Positions 35,068-58,910 of a DNA stretch of 64,000 bases are shown here, one piece after another; position 1 is the stretch's first letter; each line of letters begins with the position of its first letter. Position numbers and translations under genes: made by a program. The DNA lies in the NCBI RefSeq assembly GCF_000685155.1, contig NZ_JMIY01000001.1, positions 306,493 to 370,492 of the forward strand, given 5' to 3'. Source of the DNA: Candidatus Methanoperedens nitratireducens (lineage in GTDB: Archaea; Halobacteriota; Methanosarcinia; Methanosarcinales; Methanoperedenaceae). The notes below the pieces were generated by a model that saw only the letters and a program-made list of their open reading frames with translations, was not told the DNA's origin and searched no databases.

Positions 35068-36420
35068 ATGAAAAACAGACATCGGCTCAATATACTGACA
35101 TCGCTAATTGCTGTGTTGTTTATACTGAGCCTGTTCTCAGGGATCGCAAGTGCGAGTAACCCTAAGGAACAGTACGAAAAGGCGCAGAGACAATATCAGA
35201 TAAACAAGGAGAAATACGACAGCGCAAAAGAAAAATTCAATAAAGCAGAAGAAAGATACAATGCAGCAAGACTTAAATTCAAATCTGCAAAAAATGATAA
35301 ATCAAGGGCTGAACTGAAGGAAAGAACCAAAGAATATCTTGAAAGAGCAATAGACCAGATGGTCGCTCATCTTGAAGCCCTAAAATCCAGAATAGAAGAT
35401 CCGGAGTATACAGGAGCCATACCCTTCAATGCTTCTGAGAATATAGATGCCCGCATAATGCAGCTTGAGAATATAAGAACAGATATACAGCAGGCAAATA
35501 CGAGGCAGGAGATCGAAGAGCCTATACGCGAACTAAGAGACATATGGACCAGGATAAGACTTGAGACCCGCTACTACCTTGGAATACTGGCAAATCACAG
35601 AGTCAGCGTATTCCTTGAAAATGCAGATAATGTCTCAGTGAGAGTTAACGAAACAATCCAGCAACTGAAAGACCAGGGCGAAGATACTACTAAACTTGAG
35701 AGAGATGCATCAAGATTCGATAATCAGGTGGATGAAGCAAAAGAAAGCTATCAGAAAGTCCTGGATTTATATGCAATCCACAGAGGATTTGATTCAAGCG
35801 GAATAGTAACATCCAATCAGGAGGCTCAGGCCTTTGTCCGTGAATCTGACTCTCTGCAGAAGAATACCCTCAAGGAACTGAAGGATGCCAGCAAGCAGTT
35901 GCGCGGTCTTTTCGAAGATACTAAAAAATTAGAAGGAAAAGACAAAAAAACCATAGTTAATGGAACACTTGAAGTAAGCGGCAACGGCAGGGCAGTACTC
36001 GAAGGAGATCTTAATGTGACACTATCCGCAATCAACGGTACCCTGATAGTATCGGGTAATGCAAATGTTACGACCGATGGAGTAGGAACGAGAGAGGTTC
36101 TTGGAAACGGAGATGTCAAATACCAGGGATTCGGACAGGCAACAATTGAAGGCGATAATATCAACATAAAGATATCAGGCAATGGCATCAATCTGACAGC
36201 CACAGGTACGGGCTTTGCGATTTTTAACGGTAATGGAACCTATCGCACTACAGATAAGTCCAACAATACAAATGAGTCCGACAGTACAGATGAGTCCAGC
36301 AATACAGATGAATCCGACAATACAGATGAGTCCGACAGTACAGATGAGTCCGACAGTACAGATGAGTCCGACAATACAGATGAGTCCGACAGTACAGATG
36401 ATCCCAGCACGAGCGGTTAA
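35068..36420 (+). CDS. Secreted protein with coiled coil, beta region and Ser/Asp repeat tail
   Basis: A signal peptide (about residues 8-29, ending SASA-like GIASAS) exports the protein. Residues 30-95 form a highly charged coiled coil with heptad pattern (YEKAQRQYQINKEKYDSAKE). A helical middle domain follows to about residue 290. Next comes a Gly/Asn-rich beta segment (about 298-390) with repeated GN/GT motifs, similar to beta-helix adhesin-like proteins. The last 60 residues are eight six-residue units of the ESDSTD type. The gene has a strong AGGAGG site. It is followed by a small lipoprotein with one-base overlap, so the two probably form one envelope pair. Function is unknown. Confidence 0.8.
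   Translation: MKNRHRLNILTSLIAVLFILSLFSGIASASNPKEQYEKAQRQYQINKEKYDSAKEKFNKAEERYNAARLKFKSAKNDKSRAELKERTKEYLERAIDQMVAHLEALKSRIEDPEYTGAIPFNASENIDARIMQLENIRTDIQQANTRQEIEEPIRELRDIWTRIRLETRYYLGILANHRVSVFLENADNVSVRVNETIQQLKDQGEDTTKLERDASRFDNQVDEAKESYQKVLDLYAIHRGFDSSGIVTSNQEAQAFVRESDSLQKNTLKELKDASKQLRGLFEDTKKLEGKDKKTIVNGTLEVSGNGRAVLEGDLNVTLSAINGTLIVSGNANVTTDGVGTREVLGNGDVKYQGFGQATIEGDNINIKISGNGINLTATGTGFAIFNGNGTYRTTDKSNNTNESDSTDESSNTDESDNTDESDSTDESDSTDESDNTDESDSTDDPSTSG
36256..36399 (+). repeat. 18-bp tandem repeats encoding ESDSTD-type units
   Basis: Eight copies of an 18-base unit (consensus GAGTCCGACAGTACAGAT) run without spacers through the end of the gene, varying at few positions, most often by a single G/A change. 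The array keeps the reading frame, so length changes add or remove six residues at a time. Confidence 0.9.
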
Positions 36421-42657: not shown

Positions 42658-44030
<1,373 letters not shown>

Positions 44031-44071
44031 CTATAGGTAACATTCTAATTTAAATTTATTGATGATTCAGA

Positions 44072-44230
44072 CTATTTGTAGAGTTCCAAAAGCCTGGCAT
44101 CGATGTGGAGCGTCCAGCCGTCATTCGGTCGCGTCACTTCTGCAGGTATTATCGTTAGAACCTGCGCTACCGCGCCGTCAGAGTTGAAATGGGTGGCACT
44201 ACTATCGTCGGGATCCGCAGTTCTGATATA
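44072..44230 (-). pseudogene. Out-of-frame C-terminal coding tail of the repeat protein
   Basis: Past the stop of the repeat protein, another frame is open for 52 residues. It reads YIRTADPDDSSATHFNSDG, then AVAQVLTIIPAEVTRPNDGW and an ending HIDARLLELYK before TAG at 44072. The composition looks protein-like and follows on from the repeat tract. It has no start codon of its own. A +2 frame change within about 44218-44232 would join it to the repeat protein. It may be the lost C-terminal domain. Confidence 0.5.
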
Positions 44231-44937
44231 TCATCTATTGTTTCTGTGTATCTTTCCGATGTTTCTGTTACTGTTCTTTCGTATGTTTCTGATATATCGT
44301 CTATTGTTTCTGTGTATCTTCCCGATGTTCCGGTTGCTATTCCTGTATATGTTTCTGATATATCATCTATTGTTTCTGTGTATCTTCCCGATGTTCCGGT
44401 TGCTATTCCTGTGTATCTTCCCGATATTCCAGTTGATACTCTTGCGTATCTTCCCGATATTCCGGTTGATACTCTTGCGTATCCTCCCGATGTTCCAGTT
44501 GATACTCTTGCGTATCCTCTCGATGTTCCAGTTGATACTCTTGCATATCCTCCCGATGTTCCGGTTGATACTCTTGCGTATCTTCCCGATGTCCCTGTTA
44601 ATATTCGAGTAGGATTTTCTGTTACGATCACTGTTTCAACCCTGGATGGGCTACTTCTATAATAATTTCTATATATTTCGTCTTCATTATATCTGTAATC
44701 AAGGGAATCTCTTTGTCTTAGAATATCTGTAGTAGAGATGCCATTTCCATTTATTACGGTTAGAACATTATCATCCTGTACCCGGGTTACAGCTGTTTCC
44801 CTCGATATAGCATAATCTTCCGCAAACTCAGAGTCCTCAATCACAACCCTAACAGGTATGGCTGATAAGGCATTTGGTAAACTAGCTAAGATCGCTGCTG
44901 CTAGTAGTAATAACACCAGTATTATGCTTCTGTTCAC
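44167..44937 (-). CDS. Secreted protein with tandem 11-residue repeats
   Basis: A signal segment (about residues 4-25) suggests export. The mature N-terminal region (about 27-113) is acidic. Residues 114-245 consist of about 12 units of 11 residues, typified by TGTSGRYARVS and variants DDISETYTGIA. Such repeats may build a flexible or beta-rich surface stalk. GTG start with GGTGA upstream. It lies 71 bases after torD of cluster A on the same strand, so it could be co-transcribed. Its C-terminal end appears frameshifted (separate entry). Confidence 0.7.
   Translation of the reverse strand: MNRSIILVLLLLAAAILASLPNALSAIPVRVVIEDSEFAEDYAISRETAVTRVQDDNVLTVINGNGISTTDILRQRDSLDYRYNEDEIYRNYYRSSPSRVETVIVTENPTRILTGTSGRYARVSTGTSGGYARVSTGTSRGYARVSTGTSGGYARVSTGISGRYARVSTGISGRYTGIATGTSGRYTETIDDISETYTGIATGTSGRYTETIDDISETYERTVTETSERYTETIDDISELRIPTIVVPPISTLTAR
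44218..44598 (-). repeat. 33-bp tandem repeat array in a coding sequence
   Basis: About 12 units of 33 bases, without spacers, vary at a few positions. Neighbouring units are nearly identical, a sign of recent expansion. The last six units form 66-base pairs (TGTSGRYTETI plus DDISETYTGIA type). Confidence 0.88.
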
Positions 44938-45008
44938 TTACTCACCCCCCTTCTCTCCCTATATCCCTGAAGGTACTATTGAATCTAATTATTAAGCTTT
45001 TATGAATC

Positions 45009-45587
45009 TTATCTTATAAGCCTTACGCTCATTTCGAGCCCATCCAGTAATTCCAACCTTTCTAATACTCTGGCTGCATTCCTGTAGAAGCCGACTCTAT
45101 CATTTTTTTCTACCTCTTCGCAGAATTTTGGAACCCATTTCGAAAAATGCTCCCGTATGAAGGAATCATAGGCTTCTGTATTCTCATTGCTCGCAAGGTA
45201 ATAGAGAAATTCAAGTTCAACAGCTATATGGTCAGGCAGATCATGGAAGTTCTCCATGACCTTCAATCCTGCCCTGCTATAGCTATCAATCACTCCCAGA
45301 GTAGAATTTCCCATTACAGTATCTTCCCTGTATATTGACTCATAGGGAGGACAGGGTAGCCCTGGGATTGCGGTAATAAAAAGCCTTGTGTATTCAACCG
45401 CGATCAGGTTATAGAATTCCTCATCGTCTTTATCTCTATTCTCCTCCAGGAAATTAGAGAAGCCGGCGATTGCATCACTATCTAAAAACTCTATGTCCTT
45501 TATGAAGCCATTCCTCAGGTATCTGGTGAATTCTCTGTCAGGCCTGTGGAATATGAGGCTGAATATCCTGCAAAACTCTTTATTCAT
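45009..45587 (-). CDS. TorD/NarJ-like chaperone of molybdoenzyme A
   Basis: The 192-aa all-helical protein belongs to the TorD family, which loads and proofreads molybdenum cofactor enzymes and guards Tat export. The hallmark PCPPYES segment (residues about 77-83) and FHRPDREF at the N terminus are seen. It resembles the chaperone of cluster B (56512) along its length but is 12 residues longer. It follows the NrfD gene of operon A by six bases. Confidence 0.88.
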   Translation of the reverse strand: MNKEFCRIFSLIFHRPDREFTRYLRNGFIKDIEFLDSDAIAGFSNFLEENRDKDDEEFYNLIAVEYTRLFITAIPGLPCPPYESIYREDTVMGNSTLGVIDSYSRAGLKVMENFHDLPDHIAVELEFLYYLASNENTEAYDSFIREHFSKWVPKFCEEVEKNDRVGFYRNAARVLERLELLDGLEMSVRLIR

Positions 45588-45593
45588 AAAAAA

Positions 45594-46766
45594 TTAAATC
45601 CGGGAGGGGAGGAATTTGATCATCCTCAGCCCTACCATATAGAGAATTCCTAATGCTCCGATTACTCCAAGGACTATAGCAACCTCTGCTCCTGACACTG
45701 AGTACACTGCCGGCTCGCCGTAGAATCCCATTATGGTTCTTCCAACCACCTGCTGTGCAGGAACTGACTGACCCGGTATAACAAGGCTGAACCTCTCTGC
45801 AAATACTCCTATCACAGCAAGTAATGAGGCTAACTGCACTGTGAACATGTTCTTCCTTGCGAACAGGATACCTATCGGTATCAGGGTTCCAAGGAATATC
45901 TGGAGTCCCCAGAACACAAAGCTATATGGCCCTGAGAACAGGAATTTTGTCATCTCTCCGCCTCCGATCCCGCCGTAGGTTCGCACCATGTTCTCTATAA
46001 ACACAAGGAATAACTGGATGAGCAGGAAGACTGTTAGATATTTACCCAGACCAACTACCAGCTTCTCATCCATTCTCCTGCCTGTAAGCTTGAATGTAGT
46101 TGTCAGTATCAGTATCAACAGAGCTACTCCTGAGGTCAGGGCAGCTACGATGAAAAGTACAGGAAGCAATGGCGAGAACCAGAGTTCTTTTGCTACTATG
46201 AAGCCGAATATAGAACCTGTACCTGCATGGACGAATATTGCAAGAGCGGCAGCCGCAGCACCAAGAATCTTGGTCACTTTCAGCAGATCAGGTTTAAAGG
46301 TGGTCCAGAGATATACTAACGACAGAGCGATATATCCACTATATAAAAATGAATTTATAGCAAACATCGAGGTCAGATTCTGAGGCCCATAGATCATAAG
46401 GTTCATGAATCTCTCAGGGCGGCCCAGTTCACCCAGTATAGTCGCCAGTGCTCCAATTAATAAGAGGATTGCCAGGAATATGGATATCTTTGAGACAGGC
46501 TTATATTCCTCTTTTCCAAATACATAGGTAAGAGAGGACAACATAAGAGCTCCTGCACTTGCACCTATGAGAAATATCACTGCAGTTATGGGCAGACCCC
46601 ATGGAACTAAATTATTCGTACCGAAAGTCTCATGTCCATATCTTATACCGCTAATGAATTCGTATAATCCAATAGCTACCATTACCAGAAATGCCGCTAT
46701 CAGCCCGTAATACCCTATTGATTTTCCTTCAATTTTAACATATTCAGTTTGTTTGGCGTATTCCAT
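45594..46766 (-). CDS. NrfD/PsrC-like membrane subunit of molybdoenzyme A
   Basis: The 390-aa protein has about nine or ten transmembrane helices with conserved charged residues inside membranes, typical of the NrfD/PsrC/TtrC family that exchanges electrons with quinones or methanophenazine. It begins MEYAKQTEYVKIEGKSIGYY. The copy in cluster B has the same length. It lies 11 bases after the Fe-S subunit gene in the operon. Confidence 0.88.
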   Translation of the reverse strand: MEYAKQTEYVKIEGKSIGYYGLIAAFLVMVAIGLYEFISGIRYGHETFGTNNLVPWGLPITAVIFLIGASAGALMLSSLTYVFGKEEYKPVSKISIFLAILLLIGALATILGELGRPERFMNLMIYGPQNLTSMFAINSFLYSGYIALSLVYLWTTFKPDLLKVTKILGAAAAALAIFVHAGTGSIFGFIVAKELWFSPLLPVLFIVAALTSGVALLILILTTTFKLTGRRMDEKLVVGLGKYLTVFLLIQLFLVFIENMVRTYGGIGGGEMTKFLFSGPYSFVFWGLQIFLGTLIPIGILFARKNMFTVQLASLLAVIGVFAERFSLVIPGQSVPAQQVVGRTIMGFYGEPAVYSVSGAEVAIVLGVIGALGILYMVGLRMIKFLPSRI

Positions 46767-46777
46767 ATTTTAACCTC

Positions 46778-47431
46778 CTAATCCATATAATATACCTGTG
46801 GTTCTGTACCCAGATCAGCCCTGAGCTGGTAGTTCCTCCTGCTGCTAAGTAGCTTTGAAACTTCGCTCTCAGGGTCATCAAGGTCTCCAAAGATCCTTGC
46901 CTTACCGGGGCATGCCTGGGCACAGGCGGTTATAACGCCATCAGGCGAACCTATCTTATTCCCCTCAGCTTTCGCTTTATCTATCCTGTGTACGCACAGG
47001 GTACATTTCTCCACTATGCCTGCTATTCTGGGCGGCACATCTGAATTATGATAGTCCTTCTCTTCCTGTTTATAGAAATTGAAGAACCTCTGTCCATAGG
47101 GACATGCCACCATACAGTACTTGCATCCTATGCAGCGCTCATACCTCTGGAGCACAAGACCATCCTCTCTCTTATATGTGGCATCCACCGGGCACACCTT
47201 TACACATGGAGCTTTCTCGCAGTGATTGCATAAGATGGGCATGATGCTTGCGCTCGCATTAGGATACTTGCCTTTGAACACAGTGATAACACGGTTCCAT
47301 TCTATCAGTCTTCTCTTCTTGTAATCCTCAGGCGTGGATGATGTCACGCTGTTCTCTGCCTTGCAGGCTACTGCACATGCCTGGCATCCCACGCATCTAT
47401 CCAGATCAATGACCATTCCATATTTTACCAT
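46778..47431 (-). CDS. Four-cluster Fe-S subunit of molybdoenzyme A
   Basis: The 217-aa protein has four groups of cysteines for [4Fe-4S] clusters: CVGCQACAVAC, CNHCEKAPCVKVC, CIGCKYCMVAC, and CTLC with CAQAC near the end. This is the PsrB/NrfC/ArrB type that wires the catalytic subunit to the membrane subunit. It has no Tat signal and must be exported with its partner. The next gene starts after 11 bases. Confidence 0.93.
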   Translation of the reverse strand: MVKYGMVIDLDRCVGCQACAVACKAENSVTSSTPEDYKKRRLIEWNRVITVFKGKYPNASASIMPILCNHCEKAPCVKVCPVDATYKREDGLVLQRYERCIGCKYCMVACPYGQRFFNFYKQEEKDYHNSDVPPRIAGIVEKCTLCVHRIDKAKAEGNKIGSPDGVITACAQACPGKARIFGDLDDPESEVSKLLSSRRNYQLRADLGTEPQVYYMD

Positions 47432-47440
47432 AAAATCACC

Positions 47441-49993
47441 TCACGCCCTGTACACCCTGACCATCGTAGCATTGGTACAGCTCTGTGCAGATATCGGATC
47501 TGAGAGGTTGGCTAGAATCTCGTTGGGATTTGCCCCTAAGCCTTTGGCGTACCTGCCATAGTTCCAGTGTCCGTGCTCGAAGGGGAAGACCACGATCCAT
47601 GGCGGATTGCCCGGGTTTATCACGGCTATCGTCTTCACTTTTCCTACAGGTGATTCAACCCATACCACATCACCGTTCTTGATCCCAAGTTCATCTGCCT
47701 TATCAGGATTGAGCTCTACCCAGTTAGTCCACCCCTCTCCTACTATTACTCCGAACCTCTCCTGAAGCCACTGGGCATTCGCACCCCTGCCCTCTGCATG
47801 GGTTATCATCTTAGGAGAACTCATATGAAGCGGAAAGCCCTCAGCTTTACCCGCGAATGTGGGTTCTTCATAATGAGGATATTCAAAGAGATCAGGAATC
47901 TTCAGTTTCTTCTTAATTACTTCCTTCTGATTATCTGTAAATCCCCCAAGCTTTGAGCTTCTGAATTCAAACTTACCTGACTTTGTTTTCAGTAACTTAT
48001 CCTTAACAGGATCTTTGATAGCCTTTGTTTCAACTTCCTTGCCGTCCTTTGTCTCCTTTACAGTCTCCTCAGTCTTCTTAAGCTCCTTGTTGTATCCTAC
48101 ACCATCCCATTCATAGAACTTTCCATTAGAGTAGCGGTAGAGGTAAGGCTTCTTGTACCATGCTCCTTTCTCAGCCCATAAGTCAAAGCTGTTAACTCCG
48201 TTATCTCCGGGGGCTGTTTCAAAGCCTTTTGCTATGCTGTGGAGCATGTTCTCGAAGCTTCCAAGAGCGTTGTAGTATTCTCCCATCTTTCCGTCCATTC
48301 TCTTACCAAGATCGATGATGACTTCCATGGAGTTCCTGTTATCGTATACAGGCTGAACAGCAGGTACTCTGAGTCCGGTCACCGGGTAGCCTGTGCTTGC
48401 ATATACTGTATCGTCCTGCCATCTCTCAAGGTAATAAGCATCAGGCAGGATATAATCAGCGTACAGCGCTGTCTCGCTCAGGTAGCTTGAGGTCTCAACT
48501 ATGAATACGTCCTTGAAAGCCTCGTGTGCCCTCTGCGGATTGGGATTTGAGAACAGCGGATTTGTATAGTAGGTGAACAGAACGCTCAGCTTATAGGGAT
48601 TCCCATTCGCATGGTTATCTGGTATATTCTGATACACATTGCTTGCGATTGGCCATTCATCGCTCTTTGCCTTATCGATGCGATCAAGCGTATGCTCCTT
48701 GAAATCCTTCTCAACCTTCTTGGCGATATCATCCATGTACTCTGTATCATCGATCGGGAGCTTGCCATATGGTACACCTATCTGGTACATCACACCGCCT
48801 AAGGCGAACATGCTTCCTACGAGTGCATTTAACGCATGGATCGACATGTGGTTATAAGCACCGTTAGTATGTGCGCCTGCTCCCCTCTCTCCACCTGCGA
48901 TAGCAGGTTTTGTTGTAGCGAATTCCCTGGCTATCCTGATGATTGTTCCAGCAGGTATGCCTGTGATCTGGCTTGCTCTGGATGGTGTAAAATTAATTAG
49001 CACATTGTTCCACCAGTCCACCAATCCAGATGTCCAGACCTCTTCAAAGTCTTCGTTTGCTACGGTTTCTCCAGTTATGAACTTTCTTCCAATCTCCTTG
49101 AAGTCGCCCACAAAGCTTCTATCCCACAGTCCCTCTGTGAGTATGACATGCGCGATTCCAAGGGCAAGTCCACCGTCAGTGCCTGGTTTTACTGGAAGCC
49201 ACTCATCCGCTTTTATAGCAGTCGTTGAGAACCTTGTATCCGCTATGACCTGCTTGGCTCTGACCGGTCTTCCTCTTCTCATATGCGCCCATTTCTGGAG
49301 CATTAGATTCGTAGGTCTCCATGCCTCAAGGGTAGCCCCTCCGAAGTTCAGTACATAATTACAATTTTCCCAATCATAGGCACAGTAATCATCAGTACCG
49401 TCCAGGCAGAGCCTTGCTTTTTTACTGGCATCTGCGCATATAGATGAATGGCCAAGGTTATTGGGAGTACCGTATAGTTTTGTGAATGTGCCCCAGACAG
49501 TGCCAGCTCTACCACGGTTTCTGCCGCTCAGGTAGGCTACAGTATGGGACTTTCCCTCATCCCTGATCTTCTTCAATCTATCAGCTATATCATCCAGTGC
49601 CTCATCCCATGTAACAGGCACGAATTTCGGGTCTTCGTTCTGACCTTTGTTTGGATTTGTCCTCTTGAGAGGAGATTTCACCCTGTCCACATCATAAAGC
49701 AACTGAAGCCCTGCATATCCCTTGGGACAGAGCTTGCCGTTGCTGTATGGATGTTCGGGATTACCCTCTATTTTTACAGCCTTGCCATTTACAACCCTTA
49801 CCTTTGTACCACAGCCTGCAGGGCATTGAATACATACGCTTGAGATCCATTTCTCTTCTCTGGCCGCATCTACACCCTGAGCTAGGGCTTTAATGACCGG
49901 TTGGCCTAAAGAAGCGTAACCCATGGTTGCCGCGCCAACAGCACCTGCAACTTTTAAAAAACTTCTTCTATTGATTTTTAGTTCTGAAACCAT
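47441..49993 (-). CDS. Molybdopterin oxidoreductase catalytic subunit A (PSR/ARR/ARX group)
   Basis: This 850-aa enzyme carries bis-molybdopterin guanine dinucleotide and one [4Fe-4S] cluster. The N-terminal Tat signal NRRSFLKVAGAVGAATMG exports the folded enzyme. Cluster ligands are C54, C57, C61 and C89. C186 in GHSSICADAS is the likely molybdenum or tungsten ligand, as in PsrA-type enzymes. Near the active site stands SGRNRG (156-161), in place of the RGRY seen in the B copy. About 110 residues from about 635 are a charged insert (KKTEETVKETKDGKEVETK). The family includes polysulfide, thiosulfate, tetrathionate, arsenate and arsenite enzymes; substrate is not assigned. It heads operon A. 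Confidence 0.93.
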   Translation of the reverse strand: MVSELKINRRSFLKVAGAVGAATMGYASLGQPVIKALAQGVDAAREEKWISSVCIQCPAGCGTKVRVVNGKAVKIEGNPEHPYSNGKLCPKGYAGLQLLYDVDRVKSPLKRTNPNKGQNEDPKFVPVTWDEALDDIADRLKKIRDEGKSHTVAYLSGRNRGRAGTVWGTFTKLYGTPNNLGHSSICADASKKARLCLDGTDDYCAYDWENCNYVLNFGGATLEAWRPTNLMLQKWAHMRRGRPVRAKQVIADTRFSTTAIKADEWLPVKPGTDGGLALGIAHVILTEGLWDRSFVGDFKEIGRKFITGETVANEDFEEVWTSGLVDWWNNVLINFTPSRASQITGIPAGTIIRIAREFATTKPAIAGGERGAGAHTNGAYNHMSIHALNALVGSMFALGGVMYQIGVPYGKLPIDDTEYMDDIAKKVEKDFKEHTLDRIDKAKSDEWPIASNVYQNIPDNHANGNPYKLSVLFTYYTNPLFSNPNPQRAHEAFKDVFIVETSSYLSETALYADYILPDAYYLERWQDDTVYASTGYPVTGLRVPAVQPVYDNRNSMEVIIDLGKRMDGKMGEYYNALGSFENMLHSIAKGFETAPGDNGVNSFDLWAEKGAWYKKPYLYRYSNGKFYEWDGVGYNKELKKTEETVKETKDGKEVETKAIKDPVKDKLLKTKSGKFEFRSSKLGGFTDNQKEVIKKKLKIPDLFEYPHYEEPTFAGKAEGFPLHMSSPKMITHAEGRGANAQWLQERFGVIVGEGWTNWVELNPDKADELGIKNGDVVWVESPVGKVKTIAVINPGNPPWIVVFPFEHGHWNYGRYAKGLGANPNEILANLSDPISAQSCTNATMVRVYRA

Positions 49994-50132: not shown

Positions 50133-50148
50133 TTGAAAAAAAATTCAA
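50133..50148 (-). promoter_or_regulatory. TTGAA-N6-TTCAA dyad upstream of operon A
   Basis: TTGAA (50133-50137) and TTCAA (50144-50148) form a dyad with six A residues between. It overlaps the last codons of the response regulator gene A and lies about 50 bases above the TATA-like box of operon A. The same dyad with equal spacing is found upstream of operon B at 61483-61498. It is a candidate binding site of the paired response regulators. Confidence 0.45.
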
Positions 50149-50780
50149 AGCTCAGCAGCCTTTAGAGCTTCAAGAAGTCTTTTTCCAAGAGGTGTTAGCA
50201 TATACACTTTCTCACTATCTTGCTCTATTATTGCATGGGATTTCAGTACCCTGAGATGGAAACTCAGCTTGGTGGCATCCTCGATACCAAGCCCACGCTG
50301 AATTTCTGTGAACTTAAGTTTCCCGGCTTGATTCAGAAGTCTTACCGCGTCTTTCCTTATTGGATTTGAGATAGCCTTAATGACATCGGAATTAATGATT
50401 TGAGAATGTTTTTCAAACTCTGCTTCTGCAAGAACCTTTCGAATCTTTGTTTGAACCTCGTCTATCTTAAATGGCTTTGTTATGTACTCAGAAGCCCCGG
50501 CTTTCATCGCTTCAACTGCATTTTCAACGGTTGCAAATGCTGTTATCAGGATCACATGAGCTTTGGGTCTTATACGTCTTGTTTCCCTTAAGACCTCCAT
50601 TCCCCCCATAACTGGCATTATGAGATCGGTCAGGATAACATCATAATCCTTCTTCTTTATCATATCAAGCCCAAGTTGACCATTCTGGGCAGAATCTACA
50701 AGATAACCTTCATCCTTCAATATTTCGACAAGCCCATCCCGCATTTTCGGGTCATCTTCAATAACTAAAATACTTTCCAT
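50145..50780 (-). CDS. Response regulator A with ArsR-like winged-helix output
   Basis: The 211-aa protein has a receiver domain (residues 1-120) with the acidic pair D9/D10, phosphoacceptor D52 in LTDLIMP, and the conserved lysine in YITKPFK. After residue 130 comes an ArsR/HTH_20-like winged helix (NPIRKDAVRLLNQAGKLKFT, then KLSFHLRVLKSHAIIEQ). This output is archaeal in style, unlike the bacterial OmpR, NarL or Fis types. It follows kinase A by four bases and precedes operon A. Confidence 0.9.
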   Translation of the reverse strand: MESILVIEDDPKMRDGLVEILKDEGYLVDSAQNGQLGLDMIKKKDYDVILTDLIMPVMGGMEVLRETRRIRPKAHVILITAFATVENAVEAMKAGASEYITKPFKIDEVQTKIRKVLAEAEFEKHSQIINSDVIKAISNPIRKDAVRLLNQAGKLKFTEIQRGLGIEDATKLSFHLRVLKSHAIIEQDSEKVYMLTPLGKRLLEALKAAEL

Positions 50781-50784
50781 AATA

Positions 50785-52545
50785 TCATACCGGTAATTTT
50801 ATTGTAAATGTTGTTCCTATCCCGACTTCACTTCGCACGTCGATTGTGCCATTGTGGCGGTTTATGATCCCGTAACAGATCGAGAGTCCAAGGCCTGTCC
50901 CTTCACCCGGCTCCTTGGTTGTAAAAAATGGGTCAAATATTTTGTCCATATTTTCCCTGGGTATGCCGTAGCCGTTATCAGATATACTGATCTCTATATG
51001 ATCATGATTTGCTGTAGTTCTGATCATTATTTCTCCGTTTTTTGTAATAGCCTGTATTGAATTTGTCAGTATATCTATGATGACCTGTCGGATCTGCCCG
51101 CTATCAGCATAGATAAGGGGTAGAGGCTCAAGGAGAGTTGTAACCTTGATATCATTGAACTGATGGTTCAGGATGCTCAGTACTTTATCTATCTCAATAT
51201 TTATATCTATTGGATTTAATTTGAGTTCTGATCGGCGCGCAAATTCAAGCAATCCCTGAACGATATGTGCCGCCCTGTTTGCCTCATCATCAATGGTTTT
51301 TAGCTTGCTTTTAGCATTCTCATCCTCTGTTTTCTTAAGGAGCATCTGTGCATACAGGGATATATTAGCAAGGGGATTATTGATCTCGTGGGCCACGCCT
51401 GCAGCCAGTTGACCTATAGTAGCAAGCCTGTCGGATTGCAAGAGCTGTTTCTCAAGCTTTTTCATTTCTTTCTGGTGTGTGATATCTCTGATAACAACTA
51501 CTCTACCCACATCCGCACCCTCCTGCAGGGGTCTGCTGCTCACAACGCCCGGAAAGAGCATGCCATTCTTTTTAATGAAAACGCCTTCACCATCAAGAAT
51601 CTCTCCCATGTTATCAGTAACTATACCTTTGAAGGGAGAGTACAGCATATTTATGCTCTTACCAACAACTTCTTCAAAACTATAGTCGAATATCTCCTGT
51701 GCTGCACTGTTCCACGAGAGAATATTTTTTTGTGAATCTATCAATATCACTGCATCGCTTATACCATCAACAAGTTTTTTGTATCTCTCCTCTGAAGTAC
51801 GAAGTTCGTTTATACTGTTATTCAGGTTATGTGACATCTGGTTGAATGCTTTTGAAAGGATATGGATCTCATCAGTAGACTCAGTCTCTATCTGATATCC
51901 AAGGTTCCCCCTGCCGATTTCTTCGGCTCCTTTTACCAGAGCGCGTATCGGTCTTGTTAAATAATCTCCAGCTATATATGCCATGAAAACGCCCAGTGCC
52001 CCTACTATAAATGTGAGCATCATTATAATACGACTTGTCTGGGTTATCTTCTCGTTCAGGGATGTCTCATCCAGTCCAATATGGACAAATCCCGCCCTGC
52101 CATTCAGTATCGGAGCTTTAAAATCAATAACATAGCCATCACCGGTGTCAAGAAGCCTGGAGCTACTGCTGGTTTCAGTATGAGCAGTAAGGAGTTCACC
52201 TGGAAAGCCAGCATTAAAAGTATGCACCAGCACTTTACCCTTTGCATCAGTTATGAATATATACTCAACATCCTTCTCTGTCTTCTTGATATTCCCAATA
52301 AGCCGGTTGAGGCTCACCGTATCCTCGATCAATAAAGGCTCAGTACTGCTTGCAGCCAGGTTCCTTGATATAGCCATCCCTCTCTCATGAAGTTCCTCGG
52401 ATAATGTACTGGTAAGGCTTATTTGCACGAAGATCGTGGTCAGAGCACCGAGGAGCATTATAATAACGACTATCCAGACAACGAATTTTCTTACCAGTCC
52501 CCCCCCTATAAAATTATTTATTTTAATTACTGTATCCTTTAACAT
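50785..52545 (-). CDS. Membrane histidine kinase A with Cache-like sensor, HAMP and PAS domains
   Basis: The 586-aa protein has TM1 (about 20-42), an outer Cache-like domain (to about 170; [18 protein letters not shown]), TM2 (about 173-193), HAMP ([20 protein letters not shown]), a PAS domain (about 252-357), and the kinase core. The phosphorylated residue is H386 in [10 protein letters not shown]. Then come the N box [20 protein letters not shown] and [10 protein letters not shown]. It lies after the binding protein A, overlapping it by 23 bases. The extra PAS domain is absent in kinase B. Confidence 0.93.
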
Positions 52546-53455
52546 CTTTGACTACCTTTTTCATCTCCCTTATAGAGTCATAGAGGCTGTCGTTCGCTTC
52601 TGAGAATCTGTCTATCATGATATTGTTCAGGATCTCTTTGCCTTTTTCATCCTCATGCATTTGAAGAAGAATCGTCTTTAGCCTCTCTTTAAGTTCAGGG
52701 TCTATATCCTTTGAGACTACCACAGGGGGAATTCCGTATGGCCGGGATTTATTGATAATCCTGGTTCTTGAAGTGAACTTCGGATCAGTGGTGTCTTTAT
52801 AGTCCCAGACCAGACTATCCACAGCAGCACCATCAACCATCCTCTCTGCTACCGCCTCAATGGATTTATCGTGACTGTAGGTGAAAAACGTTAGCCTGAA
52901 AAAAGTCTCTGAATTTTCACCCATCTGCGCTAATATATATTCAGGTGATAGTTTCCCTGAATTGGATAACGGATCTGAAAAGGCAAAAGTTTTGCCTTTA
53001 AGCTCCTTCAGGTTGTTAACATCGCTGTCTTTTGGAACTATTATATATGAGTAATAATAAGTTTCTCCTCTCATTACGGGCACTACAAGGAGTTCCATGC
53101 CGAACTGATCGTACCCCTCTACATATGCCAGACTGCAAACGAAAGCTGCATCCACACTGTTCCTGCGGATAAGGTCATTTACCTCCTGATAGGTCTTGCG
53201 CTGGACAAGTTTGACCGGAACACCCGTTTTCTCGGAGATATAATCGAGCATATCCTGATAATAGACCAGCGTCTCCTCAGGGGAAATTATTGCGGAGACA
53301 GCAATCCTTATGCTCTCTGTATCTGAATTATCACCAGCATCAATAGTTCTATTTGAGAGATCGACCCTTGCAGCTTCTTCGGTATTCAAACACCCGCTCA
53401 AGGTTAAGACTAACAGGAGCATCGACATCAGAATAATACTTTTTTCAGGGTACAT
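52523..53455 (-). CDS. PhnD-like substrate-binding lipoprotein A
   Basis: This 310-aa lipoprotein has the lipobox LSGC (C22) and a two-lobed PhnD-like fold, seen in phosphonate/phosphite binding proteins: NDLIRRNSVDAAFVCSLAYV and FAFSDPLSNSGKLSPEY. No ABC transporter genes are near. Instead it is fused in operon order to a histidine kinase, as are AioX and ArxX, PhnD-like proteins that sense arsenite in bacteria. C107 is the only cysteine in the mature part besides the lipid cysteine, so it could bind a thiophilic ligand such as arsenite. The ligand is a guess. Confidence 0.85.
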   Translation of the reverse strand: MYPEKSIILMSMLLLVLTLSGCLNTEEAARVDLSNRTIDAGDNSDTESIRIAVSAIISPEETLVYYQDMLDYISEKTGVPVKLVQRKTYQEVNDLIRRNSVDAAFVCSLAYVEGYDQFGMELLVVPVMRGETYYYSYIIVPKDSDVNNLKELKGKTFAFSDPLSNSGKLSPEYILAQMGENSETFFRLTFFTYSHDKSIEAVAERMVDGAAVDSLVWDYKDTTDPKFTSRTRIINKSRPYGIPPVVVSKDIDPELKERLKTILLQMHEDEKGKEILNNIMIDRFSEANDSLYDSIREMKKVVKDVKGYSN

Positions 53456-53499
53456 ACAGGTTAGTTTTTAAATTCTTTATTTAACTTAATATATTTTTC

Positions 53500-54147
53500 T
53501 CATAACTGAGATTCCATCTGCAGCAGGATATTCAGTGCTTTTTTACCACCGCCAGTCAGGAAATACTTTTTGCTTTCGTCCTGCTCTACTAATTCACACG
53601 ATTTTAGCTTCTGGATATGGAAGCTTAACTTCGACAGGTCATCCATTTCCACCGCTCTTAGTATCTCGGATAAGGTAAATTTTCCCTTGCTAAGATACAG
53701 CAGTATTCCTCTGCGGATCGAACTGTTGAGAGCACTGAGCAATTTTTCACTCTCAACAGATTTTGCAATATCTGTAATGTTAAATTTGATTTCCTCAAGC
53801 GTTCGTTTCACCGCAGTCTGTATTTCGTTTGTTTTGAAAGGCTTTGTGATATAATCTGCTGCCCCCATTTTCATAGCTGCAACTGCATTTTCAATCGTGC
53901 CGAAGGCAGTTATCATTATAACCTGTGTATTCGGATCACTTTTGCGCAGCTCATAGAGCAGCTCCATCCCGTTCATATCAGGCATAATAAGGTCTACTAT
54001 AGCCATATCAAATCTCTTGTTTTTGAGAAGCTTAAGAGCCACCTCTCGAGAAGTGGCAGTCTCAACTGAGTAACCCTCGTCTATCAAAATCTCTGACAGA
54101 TTCCTGCAAATCCGTGGGTCGTCATCAACTATCAGAATGTTTACCAT
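53500..54147 (-). CDS. Response regulator B with ArsR-like winged-helix output
   Basis: The receiver domain has its phosphoacceptor aspartate in VDLIMPD (D52 from the ATG at 54147, the same place as in regulator A), the acidic pair near DDDPR, and the conserved lysine in YITKPFK. The C-terminal part is a winged helix (NSSIRRGILLYLSKGKFTLS, then KLSFHIQKLKSCELVEQ), close to that of regulator A. The ATG at 54147 is preferred over the in-frame TTG at 54156; both overlap the kinase B gene. Confidence 0.9.
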   Translation of the reverse strand: MVNILIVDDDPRICRNLSEILIDEGYSVETATSREVALKLLKNKRFDMAIVDLIMPDMNGMELLYELRKSDPNTQVIMITAFGTIENAVAAMKMGAADYITKPFKTNEIQTAVKRTLEEIKFNITDIAKSVESEKLLSALNSSIRRGILLYLSKGKFTLSEILRAVEMDDLSKLSFHIQKLKSCELVEQDESKKYFLTGGGKKALNILLQMESQL

Positions 54148-55516
54148 ATCTATCAACAGGAAGCCTCACTGTAAATGTACTTCCTTCTCCTACTTTACTA
54201 TTTACCTTTATTTCTCCTTCGTGCTTCTCCACTATTCCCAGGCATATTGACAGACCCAGACCCGTGCCTTCTCCAACTTTTTTTGTTGTGAAGAATGGAT
54301 CGAATATCTTTCCAAGACTTTCTTCCGGAATTCCAACGCCTGTATCTGAAATACTTACTTCAACGAAGCCGTTGGCCTCTCCTGCAGAAACGCTGAGTCT
54401 GCCTCCCTTTGGCATCGCCTGCACTGCATTAATGATTATGTTCAAAAATACCTGCTGGAGCTGGGAAGGGTCTCCCTCCAGGATAACTGACTGAATATCC
54501 CTTTCCACCCTGATATTTTTAATGCGTATTATGCCCAGGATTCTCTCCAGTATTTCTTTTATATCCATCTCTTTGATCTCTGGCTCCACCTGCCTGGAAA
54601 ACTCACTTAGATTCCTTGTTATTATTCTGGCATGCTCAACTTCAGAAATTATCTCCTCCAGCTTCTGCTTTAAAGTGTTCTCATCTGTTCGCTTGCGCAG
54701 CAGTGATTCAGCACTCAGTAAAATATTGGTCAGGGGGTTATTTATCTCATGCGCTACTCCTGCTGCAAGCATTCCTATGGAAGCAAGCTTTTCTGACTGG
54801 ATTAATCGAACCATACTTTTTTTTAACTCAATGATCATCTTGTTGAAGGCATCTGCAAGGATTGCAACCTCATCTTCTGTGGAAATGTTTATTCTTGTGT
54901 CAAAGTTGCCCTTGCCTATTTCCTCAGCACCTTTAGTAAGTACATAGATAGGTTTTGTTATCAGGTTTACTGTAAAATAAGCCAGAAGGATACCAGCGCC
55001 TATGGCAATAAAGGTGAGAATGAATAGCGTCTTCGTAATATCTGCTATTTTTTCTCTTATTGAACTTTCTGATATGCCGACGTAAACAAAGCCTGCCTTT
55101 CCATCAAGTACTGGAGTTGCAATGCTGCGTATAAACCCCTCTTCTGTTTCGAGCAGACGTATGTCGCCAGAACTATGCAGTTCAAGCAGTGCCTTTGGAA
55201 ATCCATCCTCAAAGGTATGCACTATAATATCCTTCTTTGAATCCAGGATATACACATAGGCTATGTCTTTCTCAGCCTCCTTGGCATCAAATATCAGACG
55301 CCTGAGTTCAACAACATTGTCGGTAAGTATGGCATCTATGCTGTTCGCAGCCAGGTTCTTACTTATAACTGTGCCCCTTTCCTGAAGCTCCCGGGTAAGC
55401 GTCGAAGTTAAAGTTGAGTGAACGAATATCGTGGTGACTGCGCCCAGTAATAAGATTATCCCGATTATCGGTATGATGAACTTGGCTCTCAGGCTAAGAG
55501 CTATTCTACTTTCCAT
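54125..55516 (-). CDS. Membrane histidine kinase B with Cache-like sensor and HAMP domains
   Basis: The 463-aa kinase has TM1 (about 13-33), an outer Cache-like domain (IAYVYILDSKKDIIVHTF), TM2 (about 164-184), HAMP and then straight to the kinase core with H256 in [10 protein letters not shown]. The nucleotide-binding motifs ISDTGVGIP, FDPFFTT and [10 protein letters not shown] follow. It has no PAS domain, unlike kinase A. It overlaps the binding protein B by 11 bases, showing one transcript. Confidence 0.93.
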   Translation of the reverse strand: MESRIALSLRAKFIIPIIGIILLLGAVTTIFVHSTLTSTLTRELQERGTVISKNLAANSIDAILTDNVVELRRLIFDAKEAEKDIAYVYILDSKKDIIVHTFEDGFPKALLELHSSGDIRLLETEEGFIRSIATPVLDGKAGFVYVGISESSIREKIADITKTLFILTFIAIGAGILLAYFTVNLITKPIYVLTKGAEEIGKGNFDTRINISTEDEVAILADAFNKMIIELKKSMVRLIQSEKLASIGMLAAGVAHEINNPLTNILLSAESLLRKRTDENTLKQKLEEIISEVEHARIITRNLSEFSRQVEPEIKEMDIKEILERILGIIRIKNIRVERDIQSVILEGDPSQLQQVFLNIIINAVQAMPKGGRLSVSAGEANGFVEVSISDTGVGIPEESLGKIFDPFFTTKKVGEGTGLGLSICLGIVEKHEGEIKVNSKVGEGSTFTVRLPVDRYGKHSDS

Positions 55517-56420
55517 AAGCTTCTACTCTGGCACGCATCTCTCGAATTGAATTATAATCAGCATCATCTCCCAGAATAAATTTATCTATCATGATCCTGG
55601 AGAGTATTGCTCTTCCTTTCTCATCCTCGTGCATGCGCAGGAGGACCTCTCTGAGTTTATTCTTCAACTCTGGATCCAGATCTTTGGGAACCACTACCGG
55701 GGACATACCATACTGCTGTGATTTCTTTATTATTTTTGTTTTTGATGTGAATTTTGGATCTGTAGCGTTTGCATAATCCCATATAAGGCTGTCCACGTTT
55801 GCTGCATCTACGAGCTTCTCTGCAACAACCTCAATTGATCTGTCGTGACTGTAAGTAAAGATGTAAGACTTGAAGAAGGAGTCAGGAGTTTCGTTAATCA
55901 TAACCAGATAATAGGCAGGGACTAAATATCCTGAGTTAGAGAGAGGATCGGAGAACGCGAAAGATCTTCCTCTGAGCTGCTCAAAGTTTTCTATATCGCT
56001 ATCTGTAGCAACGATTGTGTAGGAGTAATAAACAGTCTTTCCATTAACGACAGGAATAACAAGAAGCTCCATCCCGGAGCTGTCATGGCCTTCTACGTAT
56101 GCAGTACTGCAGATAAATGCTGCGCTAACATAGCCTGTTTTCACAAGTTCGTTCATCTCATAGTACGTTTTTCTCTGCACAAGTTTTACGGGTCTTCCTA
56201 TTTTCTCTGAGATATAATCGAAGATCTCCTGATAGTTAACAAAAGTTTTCTCAGGAGAAACTATCGCAGCTACGCCTATCCTGATAGATTCATTTTCTGC
56301 CACAGGTGAAAACTCTATTTTCTCCTCAAAGCTTACCTTTTTTGCATCTTCTTTTTCTATGCAGCCTACAAGTCCAGGTGCGAGTAGAAATAATATGATA
56401 ATTAAGACCGTTTTTATCAT
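55506..56420 (-). CDS. PhnD-like substrate-binding lipoprotein B
   Basis: The 304-aa lipoprotein has lipobox LVGC (C20) and a PhnD-like fold with MNELVKTGYVSAAFICSTAYV and FAFSDPLSNSGYLVP. Again only one other cysteine exists in the mature part, C104, at the place matching C107 of protein A. It is paired with kinase B. AGGAGG lies seven bases before the ATG. It follows torD B after 91 bases, possibly from its own promoter. Confidence 0.85.
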   Translation of the reverse strand: MIKTVLIIILFLLAPGLVGCIEKEDAKKVSFEEKIEFSPVAENESIRIGVAAIVSPEKTFVNYQEIFDYISEKIGRPVKLVQRKTYYEMNELVKTGYVSAAFICSTAYVEGHDSSGMELLVIPVVNGKTVYYSYTIVATDSDIENFEQLRGRSFAFSDPLSNSGYLVPAYYLVMINETPDSFFKSYIFTYSHDRSIEVVAEKLVDAANVDSLIWDYANATDPKFTSKTKIIKKSQQYGMSPVVVPKDLDPELKNKLREVLLRMHEDEKGRAILSRIMIDKFILGDDADYNSIREMRARVEAYGK

Positions 56421-56511: not shown

Positions 56512-57054
56512 TTACGAAATTAGATTTCCTAATACTGTGCATGCATGCCTGTAAAATCCTGTTCTATCATTTTCCTCAACTCGCTTGCAGAATTCAGGAA
56601 ACCATTTTGAAAAGTGCTTTTGCATGAAGGAATCATGCATCTCGGTATTTCCTGTATCAGCGAGATAATAAAGAAATTCAAGCTCCACTGCTATATGGTC
56701 TGGCAGATCATGAAAATTATTAGTAATCTTTAATCCTGCCTTATTATAGCAGGCAAGCACATCCAGAGTAGAATCTCCCATTACAGTACCCTCTCTATAT
56801 ACTGATTCATACGGAGGACAGGGCACATTCGGGATCGCATTAATAAAAAGCCTGGTGTATTCAACCGCAATCAGGTTATAAAATTCCTCATCGCTTTTCT
56901 CTTTTGTTTCCTCCATGAATTCGGAGAATCCAGTGACTGCATCACTGTCCAGGAACCCTATGTCCTCTATGAAGCCATCTCTTAAATATCTGGCAAATTC
57001 CCTATCTGGCCTGTGGAAAATGAGACTATAAATCTTATAAAACTCTTTGTTCAT
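56512..57054 (-). CDS. TorD/NarJ-like chaperone of molybdoenzyme B
   Basis: The 180-aa chaperone starts MNKEFYKIYSLIFHRPDREF and contains PCPPYES, closely matching the A copy. This family delivers the molybdenum cofactor and checks the Tat substrate. It ends operon B. Confidence 0.88.
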   Translation of the reverse strand: MNKEFYKIYSLIFHRPDREFARYLRDGFIEDIGFLDSDAVTGFSEFMEETKEKSDEEFYNLIAVEYTRLFINAIPNVPCPPYESVYREGTVMGDSTLDVLACYNKAGLKITNNFHDLPDHIAVELEFLYYLADTGNTEMHDSFMQKHFSKWFPEFCKRVEENDRTGFYRHACTVLGNLIS

Positions 57055-57059
57055 AAAAA

Positions 57060-58232
57060 TTAAGTCCGGGAGGGGAGGAGTTTAAACATCCTCAACCCTA
57101 CCAGATATAGGATCCCTATTCCTCCAATCACTCCAAGAATAATGGAAAGCTCTGCTGCCGAGACTGAATAGACGGCAGGCATCCCTTCGAACCCCATAAT
57201 GGCTCTTCCCGCCACCTGCTGCTGAACCAGGTCCTGTCCTGTTATTATAAGGGTGTATTTCTCGGCAAGGATTCCTATCATTGCAAGGAAAGAAGCAGCC
57301 ACAACACCATAAAGTTTCTTACCTGCCCCTGATAGCAGTATTCCGATCGGTATTGCTATGCCAAGCAGTACATACACTACCCAGAAAACAGAGCTATAGG
57401 GTCCGGTCAGGAAGAACTTCAAGCCCTCCCCGCCTCCCTCGTTCCCATACATTCTTGTGAAAGCTTCTATCAGTGCAAAGAATGCCAGTATAAGCAGGAA
57501 GGACAGCAGATATTTTCCAAATCCTGTTATTATTTTTTCATCGATTGGTTTGCTTTCAAGCTTTGTGGTTGCTATCAATATCAGTATTAGCATCGAGACA
57601 CCTGAAACCAGGGCTCCGGTTATAAACAATACTGGAAGGAAGGGAGAGTACCAGAGTTCTCTTCCAATCATAAAGCCGAATATCGAACCTCCTGCAGCGA
57701 TAACCGCCACCGACAGTACAATACAGGCTGTTCCAAGGTATCTGGCAAGCTGTGTTCTCTCACCGAGTATCGACCATAAGTAAGCTATTGCTACCACGAT
57801 AAAGCCAGAGTACAGGAAAGAGTTCAAAGCAAATACTGAATTAAGATATGCAGGTCCGTATATGAAAACGTTTATAAATCTCAGAGGCTTGCCAAGCTCA
57901 CCTAATATCATAGCCATGGCACCTATAAGCACTACAATAGCAAGAAAAGCTGCTATCCTTGAAATTGACCTGTATTCATTTTTACCAAACACATATCCAA
58001 GCGTCGAAAACAGCAGCAGACCTGCGCTTATTCCTTTCAGGAATTCTATCATGACAATAGGCATCCCCCACGGCACACGATCGCTTACTCCCAGATCCAC
58101 CTGTCCTGTCTGCAGTGTTTTGAAAAATTCAAATACACCTGTTACTATAAACAGCCCGAATAGTATAATCAATCCGTAGTATACTATGGATTTCCCTTCA
58201 ATTTTATTATATTCTATATTCTTGTATGCCAT
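57060..58232 (-). CDS. NrfD/PsrC-like membrane subunit of molybdoenzyme B
   Basis: The 390-aa protein has about nine or ten transmembrane helices and matches its A counterpart in length and design (start MAYKNIEYNKIEGKSIVYYG). It passes electrons to or from the lipid carrier. Confidence 0.88.
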   Translation of the reverse strand: MAYKNIEYNKIEGKSIVYYGLIILFGLFIVTGVFEFFKTLQTGQVDLGVSDRVPWGMPIVMIEFLKGISAGLLLFSTLGYVFGKNEYRSISRIAAFLAIVVLIGAMAMILGELGKPLRFINVFIYGPAYLNSVFALNSFLYSGFIVVAIAYLWSILGERTQLARYLGTACIVLSVAVIAAGGSIFGFMIGRELWYSPFLPVLFITGALVSGVSMLILILIATTKLESKPIDEKIITGFGKYLLSFLLILAFFALIEAFTRMYGNEGGGEGLKFFLTGPYSSVFWVVYVLLGIAIPIGILLSGAGKKLYGVVAASFLAMIGILAEKYTLIITGQDLVQQQVAGRAIMGFEGMPAVYSVSAAELSIILGVIGGIGILYLVGLRMFKLLPSRT

Positions 58233-58242
58233 ATTTTATCTC

Positions 58243-58902
58243 CTAATCAAGATAATATATATGTGGTTCTGTGCCGAGATCAGCCCTTAGTTGATAATTT
58301 CTCCTGCTTGCAAGCAGTTTTGAGACCTCACTATCGGGATCATCAAGATCCCCGAATGTTCTTGTCCCGGCAGGACATGCCTCGGTGCATGCTGGTACAA
58401 CACCGTCAGGCGAGCCTATTTTCTTACCCTCAGCGATTGCTTTATCCAGCCTGTGCACGCAGAACGTGCATTTTTCAACGATCCCGGCATCTCTTCCTGG
58501 AACGTCAGGATTATGATACTCAAGTTCAGGCTGCTCTGTGAAATTAAAGAACCTCTGTCCATATGGACATGCGATCATGCAGTATTTGCATCCTATGCAG
58601 CGCTCGTATCTCTGAAGCACCATGCCGCCATCCTCTCTTTTATAGGTGGCACCCACAGGACATACTTTTACGCATGGGGGGTTCTCGCAGTGGTTGCATA
58701 AGATGGGCATTATGCTTGCGCTTACATTCGGGTATTTGCCCTCTTTATATACTGTTATCACCCTGTTCCACCTTGTCAGTCGTTTCTTTGCATATTCATC
58801 AGGTGTTGAGGATGCAACGCTGTTCTCTGCCTTGCATGCTATCACGCATGCCTGGCATCCAACACATTTATCCAGATCAATTACCATTGCATATCTTACC
58901 AT
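58243..58902 (-). CDS. Four-cluster Fe-S subunit of molybdoenzyme B
   Basis: The 219-aa subunit has the same four cysteine groups as the A copy: CVGCQACVIAC, CNHCENPPCVKVC, CIGCKYCMIAC, and CTFC with CTEAC. It connects catalytic and membrane subunits. It follows the catalytic gene by eight bases. Confidence 0.93.
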   Translation of the reverse strand: MVRYAMVIDLDKCVGCQACVIACKAENSVASSTPDEYAKKRLTRWNRVITVYKEGKYPNVSASIMPILCNHCENPPCVKVCPVGATYKREDGGMVLQRYERCIGCKYCMIACPYGQRFFNFTEQPELEYHNPDVPGRDAGIVEKCTFCVHRLDKAIAEGKKIGSPDGVVPACTEACPAGTRTFGDLDDPDSEVSKLLASRRNYQLRADLGTEPHIYYLD

Positions 58903-58910
58903 AACTCACC

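Follow-up and report, generated by a model that had tools for sequence, protein, structure and literature searches.

The gene that follows torD A in the window, the whole stretch of 64,000 nucleotides from the methane-oxidizing archaeon “Ca. Methanoperedens nitratireducens” analysed here, likely encodes a probably secreted protein in which a relative of the cupredoxins without copper ligands is joined to an in-frame tandem repeat, and which was truncated long ago, with the debris of a DUF1264 domain left behind the array. Judging by the comparison with the one close relative found, here called G024, the early stop of the gene is fixed and old, and it predates the split between the two. An earlier reading of the window made from its letters (the sequence-only reading) had described the repeat protein as frameshifted after its array. 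The remains of the DUF1264 domain do lie out of frame behind the array, but the recent indel, the assembly error and the switching of frames that had been offered as causes were not borne out. The case is an ordinary but real instance of old gene truncation and domain decay.

Organization of the repeat gene

The layout given in the sequence-only reading, an open reading frame with an in-frame array of 33- and 66-base units followed by a +2 frame that stays open for 52 codons, was confirmed together with its coordinates (Table 1). About 85 residues lie between the signal-like stretch and the array. Tandem arrays were found with a period of 33 at 44380-44603 and a period of 66 at 44221-44482, and the in-register 33-base units start at 44598 on the minus strand. 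The units are imperfect, with several differing positions between them, and the array contains 44% A on the coding strand, as compared with 26-33% in eight neighbouring genes. After the last unit, the array frame runs through a short non-repeat stretch to the TAG at 44167. The tail frame is shifted by +2 (equivalently -1) from the array frame; it begins just inside the last unit at 44230 and is open for 52 residues to a TAG at 44072, and the other two frames stop sooner. Of 2000 dinucleotide shuffles, a proportion of 0.1235 (about 12%) had 52 or more open codons in whichever of the three frames was best, so the open length of the tail is no evidence by itself. It is the match to DUF1264 domains that suggests that part of the tail was once coding. 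The product of the repeat gene is predicted to be secreted, based on a signal peptide recognized by eye and on a match to a protein of genome G030.

Table 1. Coordinates in the window of the repeat gene, its parts and the adjacent genes
Feature	Position	Strand	Description
Repeat-gene ORF	44167..44937	-	256 codons from a GTG start; runs from a signal-like stretch through a degenerate cupredoxin-like region and the repeat array to a short end
Signal-peptide-like part, codons 1-26	44860..44937	-	Hydrophobic; by eye and by match to the G030 protein
Cupredoxin-like region, codons 27-109	44611..44859	-	From comparison with G024 and ligand columns
Repeat array	44222..44598	-	11-residue units (33 bases), then 22-residue units (66 bases), in frame
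TAG stop of array frame	44167..44169	-	Equivalent site in G024
Tail frame (+2), 52 codons	44072..44230	-	Out of frame relative to the array
Putative DUF1264 remnant, second half of tail	44072..44161	-	Contains GWTLHID; internal deletion, presumably at the GATGCCA word
Spacer between torD A and repeat gene	44938..45008	-	From alignment with G024
torD A (Nitrate_red_del family), upstream gene	45009..45587	-	Family match
pyrB-like carbamoyltransferase, downstream gene	43116..44027	-	Family match

The end of the array frame was also considered as a possible sorting signal of the PEF-CTERM type. There was no NCBIfam match, and the pairwise similarity was weak and found for the G024 end only (3% of shuffles, as compared with 28% for the window end). 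In 34 genomes of the family, this end was matched only by the genome of the window (G000), G024 and one weak hit. A second coding tandem repeat, with units of 18 and 54 bases that are also divisible by 3, is located at 36245-36409 in the window. It encodes the Ser/Thr/Asp/Asn/Glu-rich C-terminus of a 450-residue protein, for which no family match exceeded the cut-off.

The early stop is shared with the one close relative found

Beyond its own genome, a close homologue of the repeat protein was identified only in G024, both in a search of 60 genomes and again in the 34 family genomes. G024 was matched to the MAG of “Ca. Methanoperedens nitroreducens” isolate BE2012_43_12, and everything stated here about the age of the stop and about decay rests on this one homologue. 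Elsewhere in the family, matches were weak and fell on cupredoxin-like stretches, several of which are intact cupredoxin domains of other proteins, and scans of viral contigs revealed no relative of the repeat protein.

The G024 homologue aligns in two pieces with 73 and 75% identity. Its array frame comprises 215 codons and stops at the corresponding TAG, and its tail begins in the same relative frame. Measured from the start codon to the first tail bases that both have in common, the window and G024 differ in length by 123 bases (41 codons). Neither of the two open reading frames contains a stop or a frame-breaking indel. The surroundings are also shared, in that 19 of the 20 open reading frames listed in a 19.9 kb stretch of G024 have a counterpart in the window in the same order, the repeat gene included. 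For 13 neighbouring genes, dS between the window and G024 is 0.10-0.26, and the truncation should thus be at least as old as the divergence of the window from G024.

The sequence-only reading had taken a recent indel at the end of the array as the most economical cause, and it had advised a check for an assembly error near the same place. Repeat arrays are error-prone in assembly generally, as stated in the part of PMC9879509 used here, but the separately assembled G024 has this stop and this frame relation too. A recent indel is therefore unlikely, and an assembly error, which we rejected, is hardly credible. The same reading had held that a frameshift would lose its support if homologues ended where the frame of the repeat gene ends, and the only homologue found, that of G024, ends there.

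No indication of frame switching

Slippage of the array had been suggested as a means of switching between frames. The units are 33 and 66 bases long, and since these lengths are divisible by 3, slippage of the array cannot change the frame; the difference of 123 bases between the two genomes also corresponds to whole codons. A programmed shift that joins the array to the tail would agree with a tail frame that is open for 52 codons and partly protein-like. However, the elements of a programmed -1 frameshift, a slippery heptamer and then a stable RNA structure, were not found. Neither genome has a slippery heptamer around the junction, homopolymers of at least five bases are absent from the stretches examined in both, and the RNA fold z-score of 0.20 is no better than that of shuffles. 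Furthermore, the tail frame is interrupted in G024, which already contradicts switching. We rejected phase variation and programmed frameshifting on these grounds and consider either of them extremely improbable. As far as the two genomes tell, nothing here switches frames, which removes a candidate for repeat-driven frame switching.

The tail contains remains of a DUF1264 domain

The frameshift had also been thought to be unsupported if the tail resembled nothing, and its second half does match DUF1264. Residues 24-46 and 21-46 of the tail match intact DUF1264 proteins that carry PF06884 (per-genome E-values of 0.0026 and 0.0066). One of these proteins has 375 residues and two such domains and is encoded on another contig of the window's genome; the other has 396 residues and comes from G030. 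In the DUF1264 fragment of G024, the identity is 67% across 27 residues (E 1.5e-6), and blastn with a set of two sequences gave E 7e-16. The DUF1264 scores of the second tail half of the window and of the G024 piece were reached in none of 2000 shuffles. The tail does not exceed the curated DUF1264 score, as the window protein had no Pfam match at E-values up to 1, and G024 had no PF06884 match at E-values up to 0.01. The tail thus has the sequence relation to DUF1264 that a relic would have, and it differs from DUF1264 (PF06884) proteins in that it lacks most of the domain and is out of frame with the repeat gene.

The tails in the window and in G024 are damaged at different places, so the two genomes hold different deletions. 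While the second tail half of the window matches the start of DUF1264, the G024 fragment matches the start and the end. The matching piece in G024 runs to the end of the domain, with a change of two bases that leads into the third frame and with the middle of the domain missing. The join in the window is placed at the word GATGCCA, and since the G030 gene contains two copies of this word at a distance of 108 bases, the join may reasonably be attributed to a deletion between short repeats. With the G030 gene as a stand-in for the ancestor, the deletion would amount to 108 bases in the window and to about 273 bases in G024 (BLAST coordinates; 275 from another anchor). If G030 does represent the ancestor, both deletions are multiples of 3, which would hint that the tail was translated when they arose. 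In the overlapping frames, 23 codons of the tail frame contain two synonymous and four nonsynonymous changes, and 15 codons of the array frame contain none and three, respectively. Taken by its sequence, the DUF1264 part of the tail is dead remains in both the window and G024.

The first half of the tail had no significant match (shuffle fractions of 0.18 and 0.73 for the window piece, and 0.39 and 0.98 for the G024 piece), and its interpretation as a further DUF1264 fragment was rejected, as it failed the shuffle test. Because of this unmatched half, a single ancestral frame for DUF1264 and the array is something that we infer. It is also possible, though not probable, that a DUF1264 gene once lay downstream of the repeat gene and was stripped of its 5' end and the greater part of its body, with what is left of it now adjoining the repeat gene, in which case the two would never have been one protein. 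This is consistent with the unmatched first half, with the lack of any protein that joins the cupredoxin or the array with DUF1264 among the genomes searched, and with the intact DUF1264 proteins of the window's genome and of G030, which have their own N-termini and C-terminal sorting motifs. However, Thr and Pro abound in the stretch just before the shift in G024, as they do in the linkers of the C9 DUF1264 protein (3% of shuffles reach the score), which would be expected for one modular surface protein.

From the stop shared by the two genomes, the DUF1264 match, the differing deletions and the frame break in G024, we infer the following course. The DUF1264 part would once have been in the same reading frame as the array, from which an indel at the array's end would have severed it long ago. 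The remains of the DUF1264 part would then have decayed separately in the lineages of the window and G024, and the array would have changed its length in threes with the frame untouched. The remaining protein would be under weak constraint, or its gene would be turning into a pseudogene, with no frame switch involved. The locus may thereby serve as a small worked case of the decay of a modular archaeal surface gene.

In this order, DUF1264 is rare: matches above the cut-off were found in 2 of 34 genomes of the family and in 2 of the 149 genomes sampled from the order, which are the same two and do not include G024. The 375-residue protein, located at positions 940-2067 of L018 on a 53 kb contig of the window's genome, contains a PEF-CTERM motif in addition to its two DUF1264 domains. 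No paper that names both DUF1264 and Methanoperedens was present among the literature matches listed.

A cupredoxin-like front with altered ligand columns

Residues 1-107 of the repeat protein match the signal peptide and the cupredoxin domain of a surface protein in G030 (33% identity, E 8.3e-7). In an alignment with five cupredoxin domains, all four columns that we take to be the type 1 copper ligands (His, Cys, His, Met) are changed in both the window and G024. One of the five aligned domains, L006, is itself without the first ligand column. The homology to cupredoxins rests on pairwise matches to intact members, and neither the window protein nor the G024 protein had a Pfam match to PF00127 or PF13473 at E-values up to 1. 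A profile of all seven aligned sequences, mostly built from the intact domains, finds amicyanin and plastocyanin chains. The structure model, which was made from two sequences, is poor (mean pLDDT 51.6, pTM 0.29). The front is similar in sequence to the surface cupredoxins of Methanoperedens (PF00127, PF13473), the signal part included, but differs from them in the ligand columns. By this comparison, the front of the repeat protein is a cupredoxin relative in which all four copper ligands are missing.

Constraint on the remaining reading frame

In the comparison with G024, dN/dS was 0.87 for the mature part and 0.81 for codons 2-109, which include the signal part, as compared with 0.03-0.25 for the 13 neighbours. 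A Fisher test of the repeat gene against its neighbours, with a pool of six of the 13 genes and counts entered by hand, gave p 1.5e-8. Codons 2-109 contain 12 synonymous and 29 nonsynonymous changes. Neutral simulations of 41 changes, in which 41 distinct sites are fixed, gave a mean of 12.4 synonymous changes, as compared with 11 observed by the same counting, and 75% of them had at least the observed number. One of three neighbour checks, that of the large subunit, returned one single-step change classed as a stop; codons with changes at several bases are scored one change at a time. The mature part thus appears to evolve at about the neutral rate.

The signal part differs from G024 at 4 of 78 bases, the mature N-terminal part at 37 of 249, and the spacer to torD A has one mismatch in 69 aligned bases and two gap columns (Fisher p 0.0012 for the spacer and 0.029 for the signal part, each against the mature part). 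Either export and expression may have been retained as the exported part drifted, or another reason may underlie the conservation of the front. What remains of the open reading frame either belongs to a gene that is dying or encodes a secreted repeat protein under weak constraint. The near-unchanged spacer, the better-kept signal part, the open frames of 256 and 215 codons and the changes of the array in threes argue against a fully dead gene.

These same features, and the two frames free of stops and frame-breaking indels, would suit a truncated reading frame that is a living, fast-evolving secreted repeat protein in which only the tail is dead. We regard this as a serious possibility that falls somewhat short of probable, and it is compatible with the old truncation preferred here. 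However, the mature dN/dS and the changes in all four copper-ligand columns speak against it. Moreover, an N-terminal part without a stop is expected in 28% of the neutral simulations, and an array built of stop-free units stays open even in the absence of selection.

Comparison with Borg repeats

Similar in-frame tandem repeats (aaTRs) are known from Borgs, and according to the part of PMC9879509 used here, host draft genomes rarely carry such repeats, with 1 to 4 regions each. Like the Borg aaTRs described in that part, the array of the window lies in an open reading frame with unit lengths divisible by three, has an A-enriched strand, belongs to a probably exported protein and differs in copy number between relatives. 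Unlike the near-perfect units of Borgs, its units are imperfect, and it appears to be located on the host chromosome rather than on a Borg. This placement is suggested by the ribosomal protein and pyrimidine genes alongside the array, since the same window contains the gene for ribosomal protein L3 and a carbamoyltransferase gene. Provided that the remaining reading frame is expressed, it would exemplify, on a host chromosome, the A-rich three-base tandem repeats that have mainly been described for Borgs. A more far-reaching scenario, which we consider unlikely, is that a former copper protein beside an ArrA-like reductase operon has become a disordered surface repeat, with the upstream region and the signal kept, the mature part drifting and the repeat growing in a Borg-like manner.

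Gene neighbourhood

The sequence-only reading had suggested that the repeat gene may belong to the enzyme operon, as it follows torD A. The gene is located 3' of torD A in both the window and G024, which agrees with this suggestion, but no such repeat gene follows the second torD of the window (56512-57054). The pyrB gene was found in 59 of 60 genomes, and 28 of the 30 loci listed, in flanks of 1.5 kb (less at contig ends), have neither torD nor a repeat gene beside it; the two loci that contain both are those of the window's genome and G024. No Rfam family was matched in 43900-45100. The 3' end of torD A (window 45009-45077, compared with L067) has 62 gap columns and 16 mismatches in 69 positions from G024, so the C-terminus of TorD has changed as well.

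The window contains two paralogous operons, located at 45009-49993 and 56512-61370, with genes for a molybdopterin subunit, a 4Fe-4S protein, NrfD and TorD. The large subunits of both have their best match to ArrA (E 8e-142 and 1.6e-182), far below the ArrA cut-off of 1600 bits. Between the two operons, at 50145-56420, there are two successive and mutually paralogous sets of a PhnD-like binding protein, a histidine kinase and a response regulator.
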